Source: Bacteroidia bacterium
Lineage (GTDB): Bacteria; Bacteroidota; Bacteroidia; B-17B0; Aurantibacillaceae
Length of the DNA: 64,000 nucleotides
Assembly: GCA_016787705.1 (NCBI GenBank)
Contig: JAEUTP010000015.1
Coordinates: forward strand, 186,001-250,000
Direction: 5' to 3'
The translations under genes were made by a program, and so were the position numbers. This document shows positions 6,656 through 13,753 of this stretch, in pieces (position 1 is the first letter of the stretch; every line of letters begins with the position of its first letter). A model generated the notes under the pieces. That model saw nothing but the letters and a program-made list of their open reading frames with translations, was not told the origin of the DNA and made no database searches.

Positions 6656-8872
6656 ATGAAGAAACATTTACTTGCTGCATTTGCTCTTTTATCTTTTCTT
6701 AATATACATTCACAAACTCCAAGTCCAAAAGATTGTTCGGTAGAGCTTTGGGCAAACGTACAGGTTAGTCCGCCACAAATAACAATTAACTGGGTACCAA
6801 ACGTTGGCACAACTAATTATTCGATCGACAGAAAGCCAAAGAACAGTTCTACATGGACTTCCTTATCTGCAACTAACCCAAGCACTACCACGCAATATGT
6901 AGACAATACAGTTTCTGTTGGTGTGCATTACGAATACCGAGTTACGCGCACAGCACAAACGGGTACATTAACTTACCCGGGCTATGGTTATATTAATTCA
7001 GGCATTCAAATTCCTGTTGTAGAGAACCGTGGAAAATTAATTTTATTGGTAGATGTTACGCATAGTGTTACGTTAGCACCTGAAATTAAGCGTCTGCAGG
7101 ATGATCTGGAAGGAGATGGTTGGGAAGTATTAACAAGTTATATTAGCCCTACATTAGCTGTAACCACCGTTAAATCACAAATTGTAAACACTTATAATTC
7201 AGATCCAGCAAATGTAAAAGCTCTTTTCTTATTAGGACATATCCCCGTTGCTTATAGCGGAAATCTTGGTCCGGATGGGCATTCCGATCATCAAGGCGCA
7301 TGGCCAACAGATGTATACTATGGTGAAATGAATGGCAGCTGGACAGATGTTTCAGTTACTTCAACAACCGCTTCACCGGCACGTACTCAAAACGTGCCGG
7401 GTGATGGAAAATTTGATCAATCATTTATTCCAACTGCAGTTGAGTTACAAGTTGGCCGTGTTGATCTAAGTGGCATGACAAGTTTTACAGCAACTGAAAC
7501 ACAGCTATTAAAAAATTATTTAGACAAAGATCACGATTACCGGAAAAAAATATATACACCAATTAAACGCGCAGTATTAGATGATAACTTCGGATACTTT
7601 GCACCCGGAGAGTCTTTTGCGTCGAGTGGCTTTAAAAATTTTGGCCCATTAGTTACACCAACAAATGTGACTCAGGCAGATTATTTTACAACTATGACTG
7701 GCAATAGCTATCAATGGTCGTATGGCTGTGGCGGTGGCACATTTACCGGTGCAGGTGGAATCGGGTCTACATCTAATTTTGCGGGCTCAAACTTACAAGG
7801 AACATTTACCATGTTGTTTGGAAGTTATTTTGGTGACTGGGATATAAATGATAATTTTTTACGCGCACCTTTATGCCAGGGAAAAACATTAACCAATGCC
7901 TGGGCGGGCCGCCCTAACTGGATGTTTCATCATATGGCTATGGGCGAGAATATTGGTTACAGTACCATGTTAACACAAAACAACACAACTGTTTATTTTC
8001 CATCGCCATATCCAAGTAACTATGGTTTGTTTAATGTGATCACAATTAATTTAATGGGCGATCCTACTTTGCGTAATGATATTGTAGCACCGGTTTCAAA
8101 TGTGGTAGCTACAAAAGTTGGAAATAATTGTAATATTTCGTGGAGCGCTTCAACCGAAACTGCAATTGCGGGCTATAATATTTATATGAAGAATGCAACG
8201 AATACAAGTTATATAAAAATAAATCCAACATTAATTGCCGGCACAACGTATACAGATAATTGTTTGATCTACCCTGGTATTTATAAATACATGGTACGCA
8301 CCGTAAAATTAGAAACAACGCCCAGCGGCACGTATTATAATATGAGTGAGGGTATTGCAGACACAGCAAACAATACCAGTAACTTTGTTTCTATTGCGTC
8401 GTTTACAAACTCGGTTGCTGGGCCAACTGTAAATGTTACCAATACGTCTACTAATGCAACAACTTATTCGTGGAATTTTGGAAATACACAAACAAGCACG
8501 TCTGCCAACCCTGGACCAATAACATATACAGGTACGGGACAATATACCATTACACTGGTTGCCTCTAATGCTTGCCATAGCTCAACATCAACAGCTGTTG
8601 TAAACATCTTAATTACTGGTTTAGATGAAACCAATTTTGCCAATTCTGTTTTAGTTTGGCCAAACCCTTCAATAGGTAAAATTAAAATTGACAATGCTAC
8701 AAATGAATTAATGGAGGTAAATATTTATAGTTTGGAGGGAAGATTGCTTTATTCGAAGAACAACGTTTCTAAAAATGAAGAGTTAAACATTTCGAAACTA
8801 AGCAAAGGACTTTACGAGATAAAAATTAAAGAGGGAGAAAAAACTGTAAATAGAAAACTGGTTATAGAATAA
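6656..8872 (+). CDS. T9SS-exported C25 (gingipain)-like protein, apparently catalytically dead
   Basis: 738 aa. In order: signal peptide (1-20, ending IHSQ); FnIII-like module (about 25-120); a core of about 125-480 that follows the peptidase C25 layout (LLVDVT, ALFLLGHIPV, GAWPTDVYYGEMNG, VGRVDLSGM, then a closing LMGDPTLR); second FnIII module (about 480-565); PKD-like module (about 575-655); and a type A T9SS sorting domain (from about 665, with VWPNPSIGK and final KLVIE). In gingipains the catalytic His sits in a GHG motif and the Cys about 33 residues later. Here these places read YGCGGG (Cys358) and FGSYFGDW (Ser390-Tyr391), so both catalytic residues appear replaced. Exported across the outer membrane, function probably binding or structural. 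A divergent active site cannot be excluded. Confidence 0.78.
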   Translation: MKKHLLAAFALLSFLNIHSQTPSPKDCSVELWANVQVSPPQITINWVPNVGTTNYSIDRKPKNSSTWTSLSATNPSTTTQYVDNTVSVGVHYEYRVTRTAQTGTLTYPGYGYINSGIQIPVVENRGKLILLVDVTHSVTLAPEIKRLQDDLEGDGWEVLTSYISPTLAVTTVKSQIVNTYNSDPANVKALFLLGHIPVAYSGNLGPDGHSDHQGAWPTDVYYGEMNGSWTDVSVTSTTASPARTQNVPGDGKFDQSFIPTAVELQVGRVDLSGMTSFTATETQLLKNYLDKDHDYRKKIYTPIKRAVLDDNFGYFAPGESFASSGFKNFGPLVTPTNVTQADYFTTMTGNSYQWSYGCGGGTFTGAGGIGSTSNFAGSNLQGTFTMLFGSYFGDWDINDNFLRAPLCQGKTLTNAWAGRPNWMFHHMAMGENIGYSTMLTQNNTTVYFPSPYPSNYGLFNVITINLMGDPTLRNDIVAPVSNVVATKVGNNCNISWSASTETAIAGYNIYMKNATNTSYIKINPTLIAGTTYTDNCLIYPGIYKYMVRTVKLETTPSGTYYNMSEGIADTANNTSNFVSIASFTNSVAGPTVNVTNTSTNATTYSWNFGNTQTSTSANPGPITYTGTGQYTITLVASNACHSSTSTAVVNILITGLDETNFANSVLVWPNPSIGKIKIDNATNELMEVNIYSLEGRLLYSKNNVSKNEELNISKLSKGLYEIKIKEGEKTVNRKLVIE

Positions 8873-8906: not shown

Positions 8907-9578
8907 TTAATTTGAAGTAGTATTTATACTTAACTTATCCTTACCGTTTGATCCTACAATATCACAAAACTGTATTCGTACGGTTGTGTTAGATATTTTA
9001 GTTATATAGATCGAATAACCATCACCAATAGATCCACTAAAATTATTAAAGCTATCGTAATATTTTATTTTCACTTCGTTATCTTTATAAATATCAAATG
9101 TTGAAAAGGAAAGTGTTTTAAATACCATGGTTGTATTTAAAGGAATGAACGTTACAGGATTAAAGTCATCCTTAAATTCTATTCCCAGGTGTATAAGCAC
9201 TCCTCCCGAAAGACTTATACTTATATCACTATTTACACTGGAATAATAACCTGTACTGGCGTTTTGTGATCCACCTGTTGAAAAGGATGACGAGGAAAAA
9301 AGCGTGTAGTTTAAAACACCTGCAGTTACACTGCAAGGTGGCGTGCAGCTGTTACAAACGCCGCCACAATCAATACCTGTTTCATTATTGTTTTTAATGC
9401 CATCGTCGCAACTTGAGCAAGGCGCGCAAACACCACCACAATCCACATCTTCTTCGTTCTGGTTTTTTACAGCATCAGTACAATTACCGTATTTTTCTTT
9501 ATCGATCTTATGATCTTTGCATGAAAAAAATGCAACGCAAAATAAAATAACCGGTATGAATAAATAAAATCTTTTCAT
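8907..9578 (-). CDS. Cys-rich lipoprotein with two DCGGxCxxC repeats
   Basis: 223 aa. Lipoprotein signal with lipid Cys20 (AFFSC). Residues about 32-80 hold two copies of a compact motif of the form C-x-D-(x6-8)-N-x-E-x-(G/D)-(V/I)-DCGG-x-C-x-x-C, a disulfide or metal knot common in Bacteroidota surface proteins. The rest (about 80-223) is a Ser/Thr/Asn-rich beta domain without a recognised motif. It is the last gene of a four-gene run on this strand; 8 bases separate it from the upstream gene. Surface-exposed lipoprotein, function unknown. Confidence 0.75.
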   Translation of the reverse strand: MKRFYLFIPVILFCVAFFSCKDHKIDKEKYGNCTDAVKNQNEEDVDCGGVCAPCSSCDDGIKNNNETGIDCGGVCNSCTPPCSVTAGVLNYTLFSSSSFSTGGSQNASTGYYSSVNSDISISLSGGVLIHLGIEFKDDFNPVTFIPLNTTMVFKTLSFSTFDIYKDNEVKIKYYDSFNNFSGSIGDGYSIYITKISNTTVRIQFCDIVGSNGKDKLSINTTSN

Positions 9579-9586
9579 GATATTTT

Positions 9587-10600
9587 TTATTTAGCTTTCA
9601 TATTAAACGACATTCCAATTTTCATCATCAGGTAAATATTATCTGCCGGATTTATAATGCCTGGTCTGAAACCAAATTCAAAACCAACAATGCTGCCAAC
9701 AGGGCCTAAGCCAATTTGTTCCCAACCAATTCTGCCGCCTACCGGAATTTTTTTATAGCTGCCATTAATATCCACGCTATAAAAATTATATGGATCGTTT
9801 GAGTAATAACTTCCGCCGGAAGTATTTGCATTTGGCCCGTTACCGTTTAATGGTACTAAAATATTTTCGAATGTCATTTTTGTACCAATTAAAAAATCAG
9901 TGTAAAAAGTAGAGATGTATTTGTTTTTATATTCTTTTAATTCTCCACCATTATTAACCTGCACTACGCAATGCTGCACAAGCTGCCTGTGCATGCCAAT
10001 AGTGATCATATTCATGCTAAACATAGGGGTTGCATGGCTGGCAATAAGCACAGTGTCTTTTGGGAAGTTGGTTGCAGTGCCCGTAAAGCTAATGGTGGAG
10101 CCTTGTGCAAGGATGCTTCTGAAATAATCAAAGCCCACATGTAAACCATATGACCTGTAAGACTTAACAGGAAGCTTTACACTTTTAATATCCGATCTTT
10201 TTAAGAACGTTGCTTTAACTAATTTAAAATCTTCTTTTCTTACAAGATTAAAGCCAATGCTTGCACCGTAGGTTTTAAGAGGCTTAGTGCCTTCAGCAGG
10301 CACAGCCCACGACGAAGTGTTTGATTCTGTTACTTCTTCAAGCCTGTCTGCAAATGCTATAGTGTAGTTTGCCTTTATCCAGGCTTTTTCTTTTTTAAAG
10401 CGGTAGCCTAATTTACCTTCAATAAACATATTTAAATTAGGATCGTAAATATCTACGCCCAACAAAGTGCCGCCAATTGTAAGGTTAGGCGAATTGTTTA
10501 TAGCATTATCTTTTATGGCAGCGCTTTGGCTAAAAAGCAAACTACTTTTAATTGAACAAAAAAAGAAGATTAAAAATATGGCTTTTTTTATTTTTAGCAT
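9587..10600 (-). CDS. Secreted, probable outer-membrane protein
   Basis: 337 aa with a signal peptide (hydrophobic IFLIFFFCSI, cleaved near SLLFSQ). The mature part has repeated amphipathic beta strands with glycine and aromatic residues (GKLGYRFKKEKAWIKANYTIAF, SIGFNLV, YGLHVGFDYF, GGRIGWEQIG, VGFEFGFRPG) and ends with a strand, IGMSFNMKAK, as outer-membrane barrels do. It lies 3 bases after the M48 protease gene and 8 bases before the Cys-rich lipoprotein gene, so these are surely one transcript. A barrel is inferred from the pattern only; no family recognised. Confidence 0.7.
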   Translation of the reverse strand: MLKIKKAIFLIFFFCSIKSSLLFSQSAAIKDNAINNSPNLTIGGTLLGVDIYDPNLNMFIEGKLGYRFKKEKAWIKANYTIAFADRLEEVTESNTSSWAVPAEGTKPLKTYGASIGFNLVRKEDFKLVKATFLKRSDIKSVKLPVKSYRSYGLHVGFDYFRSILAQGSTISFTGTATNFPKDTVLIASHATPMFSMNMITIGMHRQLVQHCVVQVNNGGELKEYKNKYISTFYTDFLIGTKMTFENILVPLNGNGPNANTSGGSYYSNDPYNFYSVDINGSYKKIPVGGRIGWEQIGLGPVGSIVGFEFGFRPGIINPADNIYLMMKIGMSFNMKAK

Positions 10601-10603
10601 GTT

Positions 10604-12709
10604 TTAATTTTTTCCATAAACTTCTTGAATGTATTTCTCTTTTTCTTTTTTACTTTTCTTAAACATTTTAACTGCTTTTTTTGGTGTTAACCAATATCCT
10701 TTTATTTTGCTGGATGAAAGCGTTTCTCCTGCTCTTGAATCATAAGAATAAAGATCTAAGCGTTTTGAGTTGGCTATCCTGAAAGGAAGAAACAACCATG
10801 TAAAGCCAAGTGTTGGAATGCCCATGTAGAGTGCCGGGCGACGTAAAATATGATCCATTTCGCTAAAGTGCCTGGTGTAACGCGCGTACGTGATAGTGTT
10901 TATCTTTTCTTTATTAAAAAAATCCCAAATTTCAGGGTTAAGTCTGAAAATATCTACTTTACCAATATAATCTTCATCTTCCAACTCTTTATAATAATGA
11001 ACCATCTCATAACCTTCATTTTCTTCACGCTGCGCAAGCGATGTTGAGATAATTATTTCTTCATATTTTTCTTTGGTGTTAAAATTTTCCACAGATGCCT
11101 GCGGTAACGAAATAGATTTTGTATTAGGAAGCCTTGTATTAAATGACTTGCTTATATCCGTGGCTAGCTCACCACCAACCATTTCAGACTTTCCGTAATT
11201 GTAACGTGTGCGGCCGTAGCTTATGGTTTTTGTATATTTTGTATGCGAAAAATAATCTACCTGCGGTATCATAACAATTTCGCCGCTGTTATTAAGAATG
11301 CTTGATGTAAGTGTATTATTAAGATAATTTTTAGCATACTCTTTTCTTAAAGCTTTAGGGTGCGCTAAATATTTATCGATGCTTGTTTTTTGTTTTTCTT
11401 TATTATTTTCAAACAAAGCTGCCATTAAATGCGCTTCGGCAAAATCTTTTTTAATCAATTTCTCATTAAAATAATAAAAGGCTTCTCTGTAGGTTTGAAA
11501 AGGCGGTGCAGCAGCATTTAATAATTCGGTTGCAGTAATGTTCTTATACATTTCCTCGTTTGGAATTAAGAATTTAAGGTCGGCCAAAATACCTGTTCCC
11601 TCGTTAAAACCATTATTTATGAGATTTTCAGCCAAAAAGCCTTTTTTTCGTAAAGTATAATCCAATAAGCAAAGGCGGCGAATACTTTCTGTAATGTAAT
11701 AATGATATGTACTTTCGTTAGGCTCAAATAAATGAAAACGGAAAGCGCGCTCTAAACATTCGGCATAATTGTGTTCACCAAAAATAAGGCCAATAGACTC
11801 TAAGCGCGCTTGTTTTTGAAGCGTTGCAAAAGTAGTTGCGTCCATTTTATTTAATAGTTTTTTTGTTGAATTATTGTTTTTTACAAAAGCAATAAGTTTT
11901 TCTTTTCTTTCTTTTTCATCCGGATGAGTGCTCAATAACTTTTCTAGCGTGTTGGCAGAATATATTCCTGATTTGGTTTTTATTTTTACCGTATCGCCAT
12001 TTACAAGATCGCTGCTTGTGCGTTTTTGATAATATTCTTTTTCACGAATAAATAATTCAAAATTTGAAATAGCTTGCGACACGTCGTAGCCGGCGTTTTT
12101 TGCAATGGAATAACCCAGGTCGTCTGCTTCAAGTTCTAATTGTTGCGAATAGCCTTTACGCTTAATAGCCAGCGCCAGTTCATCTTCTTTTCTACGGCTT
12201 TTTTCTTTAACGCTTTTAACGTAGTCGTTTAAAACGTGTTCTTTAATATGATGGCCTAATTCGTGACCCATAATGGTTGCTAATGCAGCCTCGTTCTTTG
12301 CTTCTGCAATTAAGCCAACATTCACGATCATAGTACCATCGTATAAACAAAACGCATTTATTTCGCTGCTGCGACCAATGAAAGCTTTAATTTTTTTATT
12401 TTTTAAATTGTCAGGCATTATACTATCCAATACCTGGTTAACATAACTCTCAAGTGCAGGCCAGCTCAAATATATTTTGCCGTCTTTAAACATATCGGAT
12501 TTGCCAAAGGCGCATGAGTATGTAAATGGCTTTAAGTGCTTTTTTGGAATTTTCTTTTGTACTTTTTTACGATATTTTTCTTCGTCTTTTAACGGGAGTA
12601 AAATATATTTTTTATCTACCTTTTCCGGAAACGGCATAAGCTGGTAGATTTGTGCCTTTGTAAGTAAAACACAAAACAAAAAGGTGTATAATAGGATTCT
12701 TCTTTTCAT
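10604..12709 (-). CDS. Periplasmic M48-family zinc metalloprotease
   Basis: 701 aa. Signal peptide of 20 residues (ending TKAQ). The M48 protease domain holds HELGH (His149, Glu150, His153) and the third ligand region ELEADDLGY (Glu192). The domain is preceded by YDGTMIVNVGLI, as in BepA/Oma1-type proteases, which cut or repair envelope proteins. A long C-terminal region of about 400 residues (helical, then beta) has no domain I can name. BepA has a TPR region in this place; weak helical pairs are visible but not convincing. Gaps of 3 bases on both sides tie it to the C-anchored protein upstream and the barrel-like protein downstream. Confidence 0.87.
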   Translation of the reverse strand: MKRRILLYTFLFCVLLTKAQIYQLMPFPEKVDKKYILLPLKDEEKYRKKVQKKIPKKHLKPFTYSCAFGKSDMFKDGKIYLSWPALESYVNQVLDSIMPDNLKNKKIKAFIGRSSEINAFCLYDGTMIVNVGLIAEAKNEAALATIMGHELGHHIKEHVLNDYVKSVKEKSRRKEDELALAIKRKGYSQQLELEADDLGYSIAKNAGYDVSQAISNFELFIREKEYYQKRTSSDLVNGDTVKIKTKSGIYSANTLEKLLSTHPDEKERKEKLIAFVKNNNSTKKLLNKMDATTFATLQKQARLESIGLIFGEHNYAECLERAFRFHLFEPNESTYHYYITESIRRLCLLDYTLRKKGFLAENLINNGFNEGTGILADLKFLIPNEEMYKNITATELLNAAAPPFQTYREAFYYFNEKLIKKDFAEAHLMAALFENNKEKQKTSIDKYLAHPKALRKEYAKNYLNNTLTSSILNNSGEIVMIPQVDYFSHTKYTKTISYGRTRYNYGKSEMVGGELATDISKSFNTRLPNTKSISLPQASVENFNTKEKYEEIIISTSLAQREENEGYEMVHYYKELEDEDYIGKVDIFRLNPEIWDFFNKEKINTITYARYTRHFSEMDHILRRPALYMGIPTLGFTWLFLPFRIANSKRLDLYSYDSRAGETLSSSKIKGYWLTPKKAVKMFKKSKKEKEKYIQEVYGKN

Positions 12710-12712
12710 TTT

Positions 12713-13687
12713 TTATTTTAATAGTGTTGCTATTACAAATGCTACGGCTAAAATACCCAGCGAGGCTAAAACAAAATGATCTTTTTTAACCGGGGCATCG
12801 GCCATAACTGAGGGAGCGGCAACAACAGAGCCGTTAGAAGCGTTAAGTAGCATTTCATTGCTAAAAATAAGTACCTCTTTATCTGCTTTTGTTAAAGCAA
12901 GCTTTATATCTTCAGGAAAAACGGTATAAACATTTTTTGTAGGAGGATTAAATTGTGAAACTGCATTGAACGGCGTGGTTTTTTTATTTGCTGCTTTATC
13001 TGCCGCTAAAGTTTTATTTACCTGTTCTTTTACTAGTAAAATGCTTTTTGTTTGCACGTCGTTTAATCCTGATTCAAAATAAACAATACCGTCTTTGTCT
13101 TCTTTCTTTACATCCCTAAAAGCAATAGCTTTTTGGCAAAACACAACTTCGTTATTAAAATATTTCAGCATAAGATCAAAGTAACCATCTAAAACTTTTT
13201 CTTTTGTATTTGTAAGAGTAGAACTTAAGTCGAATTTTATTTTTACAGATTCTTTAGTAGAGTATTTTAATCCACCCGATTTTTTTTGAACGTCTTTTTC
13301 ATTACCTGCTAAAAGATAAAACACACCTGTGTGAGTTTTATTTAAAACGTTTGCTAAAACAGCATTACCCGAACTCTCATTCATCGAATAATCTCCGTTA
13401 CTTTCATACAAATAAAGGTCATTCTCTGATAACTCGCTCTTTGATTTTGAATTTAAAAAAGCCGTGCCGGATAATAGATTATATGAACCCACTTTCCAAT
13501 TGCTTTTTACTGCATTTAACAGCGCGGCATCATAAGGTTCTTTTTCATTATTAATCACTACATAAAGGGTGCCTTTTTTTGAAAGATCAGCAATTTTTTT
13601 TGCGCTTTCTTCAGTCAATGAAACCGAAGAGTACTGCGAAAATACAATGGAGGAAGAAAATAAAAAGAGAAAAAGAAATTTATACAC
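12713..13687 (-). CDS. Exported protein with C-terminal membrane anchor, unknown function
   Basis: 324 aa. N-terminal signal peptide (cleaved near residue 18, IVFSQ) and a hydrophobic C-terminal segment at about 304-323 (VLASLGILAVAFVIATLLK), so the chain is probably held in a membrane by its tail with the bulk in the periplasm. The body is Lys/Asn/Ser rich with a few aromatic strands; no enzyme motif seen. It is the first gene of the four-gene envelope run (next gene 3 bases away) and follows rpoN by 66 bases. Function unknown; possible adaptor for the M48 protease (inference from order only). Confidence 0.68.
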   Translation of the reverse strand: MYKFLFLFLFSSSIVFSQYSSVSLTEESAKKIADLSKKGTLYVVINNEKEPYDAALLNAVKSNWKVGSYNLLSGTAFLNSKSKSELSENDLYLYESNGDYSMNESSGNAVLANVLNKTHTGVFYLLAGNEKDVQKKSGGLKYSTKESVKIKFDLSSTLTNTKEKVLDGYFDLMLKYFNNEVVFCQKAIAFRDVKKEDKDGIVYFESGLNDVQTKSILLVKEQVNKTLAADKAANKKTTPFNAVSQFNPPTKNVYTVFPEDIKLALTKADKEVLIFSNEMLLNASNGSVVAAPSVMADAPVKKDHFVLASLGILAVAFVIATLLK

Positions 13688-13753
13688 AATGCGTAAAAAT
13701 AACTAAAAAACACACACTTATTGCTATCTAAACAATCTTTAGTTGTAATATTA

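Follow-up and report, generated by a model that had tools for sequence, protein, structure and literature searches.

A putative composite envelope operon joining a BepA-like M48 protease unit to a likely barrel-lipoprotein unit in a Bacteroidia bacterium

Results of our analysis of a 64,000-nucleotide stretch of DNA of a Bacteroidia bacterium (hereafter, the window) suggest that four closely spaced genes for exported proteins may form a species-level composite operon, in which a pair encoding a membrane-anchored exported protein (EXP) and an M48 protease has been joined to a pair encoding a likely outer membrane barrel (BARREL) and a lipoprotein (LIPO). We consider the chances to be about even that the locus is such a composite and that its protease is a BepA-like periplasmic enzyme, which is tethered by EXP at the inner membrane and checks or matures the co-encoded outer membrane partners. 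The designations EXP, BARREL, and LIPO, as well as GBAR and TOLB used below, were coined in this analysis.

The four open reading frames are located on the minus strand at positions 13687-12713, 12709-10604, 10600-9587, and 9578-8907 and are separated by 3, 3, and 8 bases, exactly as claimed in the original prediction for this locus. Its description of their products as a C-anchored exported protein, an M48 protease with a large additional C-terminal region, a probable barrel protein, and a Cys-rich lipoprotein agrees with the features presented below, the barrel assignment being a likely one and the surface location that it gives to the lipoprotein a putative one. All four products carry export signals in their sequences, and Peptidase_M48 is the sole Pfam family matched above the cut-off by any of them; the statement that the partners of the protease match no family holds against Pfam for EXP, BARREL, and LIPO. 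The proposal that the genes represent an outer membrane assembly or quality-control module stands in part. It is supported by the BepA-like sequence and predicted fold of the protease, by the export signals, and by the repeated location of related long M48 genes beside genes for likely barrels, which fits such a role, but the set as a whole is not conserved. The four genes were found together in no other genome searched, and a four-gene module conserved as such was therefore rejected. The recurrence of the EXP-M48 and barrel-lipoprotein pairs elsewhere indicates more than chance, while the retention of EXP-M48 in congeners that lack the second pair at this place means that the join may be incidental.

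The only gap longer than 8 bases in this run of genes is that of 66 bases between rpoN and EXP (13688-13753, minus strand), directly 5' of EXP, which is the most likely site of the operon's own promoter. As a scan for sigma-70-type promoters gave results at chance level (33 found vs. 30 expected) and no consensus promoter is claimed, we infer a single transcript, and one operon, from the gene spacing. The G+C content of the four genes (0.33-0.36) is near that of the window (0.353) and thus provides no compositional sign of recent transfer.

The predicted link to tyrS and rpoN, which are 2 bases apart, could be seen in the window, where EXP follows rpoN after those 66 bases, but among four congeners with the EXP-M48 pair it was found in one only (G019) and not in the other three. 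In G019, an inverted gene separates EXP from rpoN, and EXP must therefore have its own start there. A functional tyrS-rpoN linkage, confined to one congener and broken in it, was rejected. The inverted gene of G019 (L034, 3410-5674) is a relative, 50% identical, of the window gene at 6656-8872 (plus strand), which is convergent with LIPO and encodes an exported 738-aa protein with a PKD domain and a type IX secretion C-terminal sorting domain; a gene of this type thus accompanies the EXP-M48 pair in two genomes. The congener G016 (L049, 4918-8265) has a cassette of the other type, with genes for a 477-aa M48 protease, a TOLB lipoprotein, and GBAR, which lies beside a DUF4286 gene at the opposite side of this tyrS-rpoN neighbourhood. 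M48 cassettes may thus have landed repeatedly in the tyrS-rpoN region.

The M48 protease (10604-12709, minus strand; 701 aa) comprises a signal peptide followed by peptidase, helical, and C-terminal alpha/beta regions. Its match to PF01435 (Peptidase_M48, E 2e-20) covers only about residues 88-280, and about 400 extra residues follow the peptidase domain. In the AlphaFold2 model, obtained with 14 relatives (pLDDT 82), the peptidase domain (about 80-280) is followed by helices (about 290-475) and an alpha/beta domain (476-700). The active-site residues, namely HExxH at 149-153 (H149, E150, and H153), E192, and H262-P263, show no variation across the 14 aligned long M48 proteases. In BepA (YfgC), the M48 beta-barrel assembly-enhancing protease of Escherichia coli, zinc is bound by H136, H140, and E201, with H246 as a regulatory residue on the active-site plug (PMC7950410, PMC8423444). 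By motif and position, and not by superposition, H149/H153, E192, and H262 of the window protease answer to H136/H140, E201, and H246 of BepA, respectively. The two proteins have in common the HExxH motif, the third Glu ligand, the regulatory His-Pro, the signal peptide, and a helical region behind the peptidase domain.

BepA is the nearest solved relative of the window protease by sequence, as indicated by a search of PDB with a five-orthologue profile (E 4e-6), and its nearest solved fold, being the first match of the model in Foldseek (E 4e-6). The Foldseek alignment extends over 450 columns with a TM-score of 0.21 and an rmsd of 16, and the domain arrangement of the two proteins differs accordingly. 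The C-terminal TPR domain of BepA cups its peptidase domain, and BepA interacts with BAM and LptD intermediates; the model of the window protease shows helices at 291-472. In contrast to BepA, the window protease also has about 210 additional C-terminal residues, which make up the alpha/beta domain, and is encoded together with EXP, a barrel, and a lipoprotein. As it scores 52.4 bits against a cut-off of 570 in the NCBIfam BepA equivalog model, we refer to it as BepA-like and not as BepA. Two further M48 proteases of E. coli, LoiP and YcaL, are lipoproteins linked to outer membrane protein turnover (PMC13067283). The window protease weakly matches the LoiP profile, but it differs from these proteins in its size (701 aa vs. 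the 247 positions of the LoiP model), in its signal of the signal-peptidase I type, and in the presence of two further domains.

EXP (12713-13687, minus strand; 324 aa, GTG start) is predicted to consist of a signal peptide, a periplasmic alpha/beta part, and a C-terminal transmembrane anchor. Its C-terminal hydrophobic segment appears in the model (pLDDT 78) as a helix at 302-323 and is the most hydrophobic among 49 family members. The five EXPs linked to proteases occupy exactly the top five places in this ranking, and all of them have a membrane anchor, which nearly all other EXP relatives lack. No match of the EXP model in PDB was found at E<=0.001 (the best was LptE, E 0.12), and no Pfam family was matched above the cut-off (a match to DUF1408, E 0.027, was disregarded). 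Neither TOLB nor the C-terminal part of the protease was supported as a homologue of EXP.

Among 60 relatives, protease orthologues were found in four congeners, 53-60% identical to the window protease over nearly the full length, and in all four an EXP orthologue is encoded directly upstream. On a tree of 66 long M48 proteases, the five EXP-linked ones form a single group (SH-aLRT 99, quick method). In the four congeners, no gene for a barrel or a lipoprotein was seen 3' of the protease gene, the contig of G019 ending 321 bases past it. A scan of genome-collection contigs with the window protease alone found nothing; the same scan with a five-row alignment returned four Bacteroidetes MAG contigs that correspond by position and length to the four congener loci, and no new locus. 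EXP relatives, which are mostly solitary, were found in 54 of the 295 Bacteroidia genomes sampled. In one genome (G303), two of them stand in tandem (L117, 3284-5125), and a LIPO-BARREL pair is located separately (L128).

BARREL (9587-10600, minus strand; 337 aa) is an exported protein that, judging from its signal peptide and from amphipathic-strand peaks (13 in BARREL itself) that exceed shuffled sequences in its family, is likely an outer membrane beta-barrel. Such peaks occur in the family at 3.49 per 100 aa vs. 2.61 in shuffles, and EXP and M48 proteins are not enriched in them; two of 22 BARREL relatives weakly match OMP_b-brl. LIPO (8907-9578, minus strand; 223 aa) contains a lipobox with the Cys at position 20, 12 Cys in all, two copies of a Cys motif ending with DCGGxC, and a C-terminal part that is probably beta-rich. 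The surface export signal of Bacteroidota lipoproteins has been described as a strict C-X-K-(D/E)2 or as acidic residues after the Cys (PMC5080379, PMC12578637). In LIPO, the lipid-bearing Cys is followed by KDHKID, in which the strict motif is absent and two of the first six residues are acidic. Neither LIPO nor BARREL matches a Pfam family, and no relation to SusC/SusD, TonB receptors, or FadL was found with Pfam; a match of LIPO to the PG1828 lipoprotein (E 0.1) was below the cut-off. The adjacency of genes for a barrel and a lipoprotein resembles that in the RagAB, HmuYR, SusCD, and BamGH (Bacteroidota BAM) systems, from which BARREL (about 340 aa) and LIPO differ in this lack of a Pfam match.

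A single-sequence search with BARREL (P0002) found no relative in 60 genomes. A LIPO profile search led to neighbouring BARREL relatives at L108 (G226), L127 (G248), and L128 (G303), and EXP, LIPO, and BARREL occur together at L085 (G134). Four genomes of other families thus have BARREL next to LIPO, in one case along with EXP. The gaps between them are about 8-30 bases in these loci and the window, and the lipoprotein gene, second in the window, is first in the four other genomes. By a rough estimate, which assumes one barrel relative per ~3,200 genes, such adjacency would arise by chance at ~6e-4 per LIPO gene, and the three cases among about two dozen LIPO loci that were not used to define the pair are therefore far above chance. 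The barrel profile gave matches in 34 of 295 genomes, in most cases with no adjoining LIPO, and most LIPO relatives that carry the DCGGxC motif stand alone. In the LIPO relatives of L085 (3416-3976) and L108 (5420-6070), the inner Cys of DCGGxC is replaced (DQGGSC and DFGGSC) and the E, D, GG, and outer Cys are kept, which looks like a stepwise loss of one disulfide. In the congeners G030 and G009 (L212 and L213), BARREL relatives are preceded by genes for small exported proteins (249 and 258 aa) that are similar to each other and are not LIPO. A search of open-licence papers for the DCGG motif yielded nothing relevant.

Long M48 proteases, defined here as open frames of at least 440 aa, were found in at least 98 of the 295 Bacteroidia genomes sampled and are frequently coupled to small likely barrels. 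In 63 long M48 loci with a visible downstream gene, which were drawn from top matches and from loci fetched otherwise, so that the fractions are not unbiased, the gene directly downstream encodes GBAR in 22 cases and the lipoprotein TOLB in eight, with GBAR following TOLB in most of the latter; ten further loci have genes of other small proteins there, some with the GBAR motif. GBAR is a small exported protein with the motif G-[YF]-x-G-[KR] after its signal peptide; it is probably a barrel, and no Pfam family was found for it. Comparison of TOLB with the long proteases of the GBAR-linked clade gave a match to their C-terminal domain (hhalign 99.4, E 2e-21), which indicates that the protease and this domain are encoded by one gene in the long forms and by two in the short ones. 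The window protease belongs to the other clade of the long M48 tree, which is mostly devoid of a downstream GBAR or barrel gene, and the C-terminus of its EXP-linked group shows no sequence match to TOLB (hhalign 0.1).

GBAR has no match in the genome of the window bacterium, where the gene 3' of the protease is BARREL. Homology of BARREL to GBAR was not accepted, as the hhalign probability of 78 fell to 60 with more sequences and the match extended over the signal-peptide end; the comparison of GBAR with EXP gave 39 in the same manner. The locus nearest to having all parts together is that of G072, with the gene run EXP-LIPO-M48-TOLB-GBAR-x-EXP. Two M48-GBAR pairs stand in tandem at L165 and near each other at L179, in each case within one genome, and at L159, three GBAR genes follow one protease gene in a row. 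These arrangements suggest duplication and specialization of the M48-GBAR module.

In the mechanism that we propose for the window locus, a BepA-like periplasmic zinc protease with an additional C-terminal alpha/beta domain would be paired with the inner-membrane-anchored EXP, which might tether it, present substrate to it, or regulate it. The second unit would consist of BARREL in the outer membrane and LIPO as its lipoprotein partner. The protease would hold a late or stalled intermediate of the barrel, or of the barrel with its lipoprotein, as BepA does; its His-switch (H262) would keep it inactive during normal assembly, and intermediates that fail would be degraded. In this species, the co-encoded BARREL-LIPO would be the natural candidate client. 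Counting against this mechanism are the lack of a recognizable fold of EXP, the congener EXP-M48 pairs without a barrel and lipoprotein, and the membership of the window protease in a clade mostly without downstream barrels.

It is possible, at clearly lower probability, that the operon holds two unrelated envelope pairs, a general periplasmic EXP-M48 protease unit and, inserted behind it, a functionally unconnected surface barrel-lipoprotein complex like those of other Bacteroidota pairs. Consistent with this are the occurrence of the join in this species only, that of EXP-M48 without BARREL-LIPO in the four congeners and of BARREL-LIPO without the protease in other genomes, and the failure of the single-sequence search to find BARREL relatives, but the same families combine elsewhere, as EXP-LIPO-BARREL in G134 and in the gene run of G072.

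Another reading is that of an export device of the CsgG or PelC type instead of a quality-control protease, in which the C-terminal domain of the protease would form oligomers at the outer membrane, with processing of an exported product by the protease. CsgG (rank 11, E 0.13, prob 0.66) and PelC (rank 15, E 0.62) are among the Foldseek matches of this part, which is a hint that the domain may be CsgG-like, and in short forms it is a separate lipoprotein, TOLB. These matches are weak and not significant, compared to E 4e-6 for BepA; moreover, the domain belongs to the protease here, its clade is the one without the TOLB sequence match, and no constant gene for an exported substrate was seen beside long M48 genes. 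We regard such a device as improbable. Shedding or processing of LIPO or other surface proteins by the protease, that is, surface remodelling instead of barrel assembly, appears more improbable still: LIPO is Cys-rich and in G072 is encoded directly upstream of the protease, but it usually accompanies BARREL or stands alone, and it is likely barrels that long M48 proteases are coupled to.

While the fold and chemistry of the protease are already known, neither Pfam nor the open-licence literature searched yielded its extra domain, the fused and separate-lipoprotein forms of that domain, or the recurrent coupling with an unnamed family of small likely barrels. Searches for M48 proteases in Bacteroidetes and for CsgG with M48 returned no relevant paper, and no description of the module was found in that literature. 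Structures of the Bacteroidota BAM were published in 2025 (PMC12611786, PMC12578637), and the main text of neither paper includes M48 or BepA. Returning to the BepA-like mechanism, we tentatively extend it, as a generalization of rather low probability, to Bacteroidota as a whole, in which long BepA-like proteases with an additional domain, perhaps CsgG/TolB-like, would be dedicated to maturation or quality control. Many of these would be encoded together with a specific client, a barrel and/or a lipoprotein (GBAR, TOLB, or BARREL-LIPO), in this genus with EXP as an inner membrane tether, and they would be client-specific and separate from the Bacteroidota BAM. A BepA-like family that occurs in at least one third of the sampled Bacteroidia genomes, often coupled to a gene for a small likely barrel, offers a concrete gene set with a co-encoded candidate client, and the proposed roles would give functions to EXP, GBAR, BARREL, and LIPO, families without a Pfam match.
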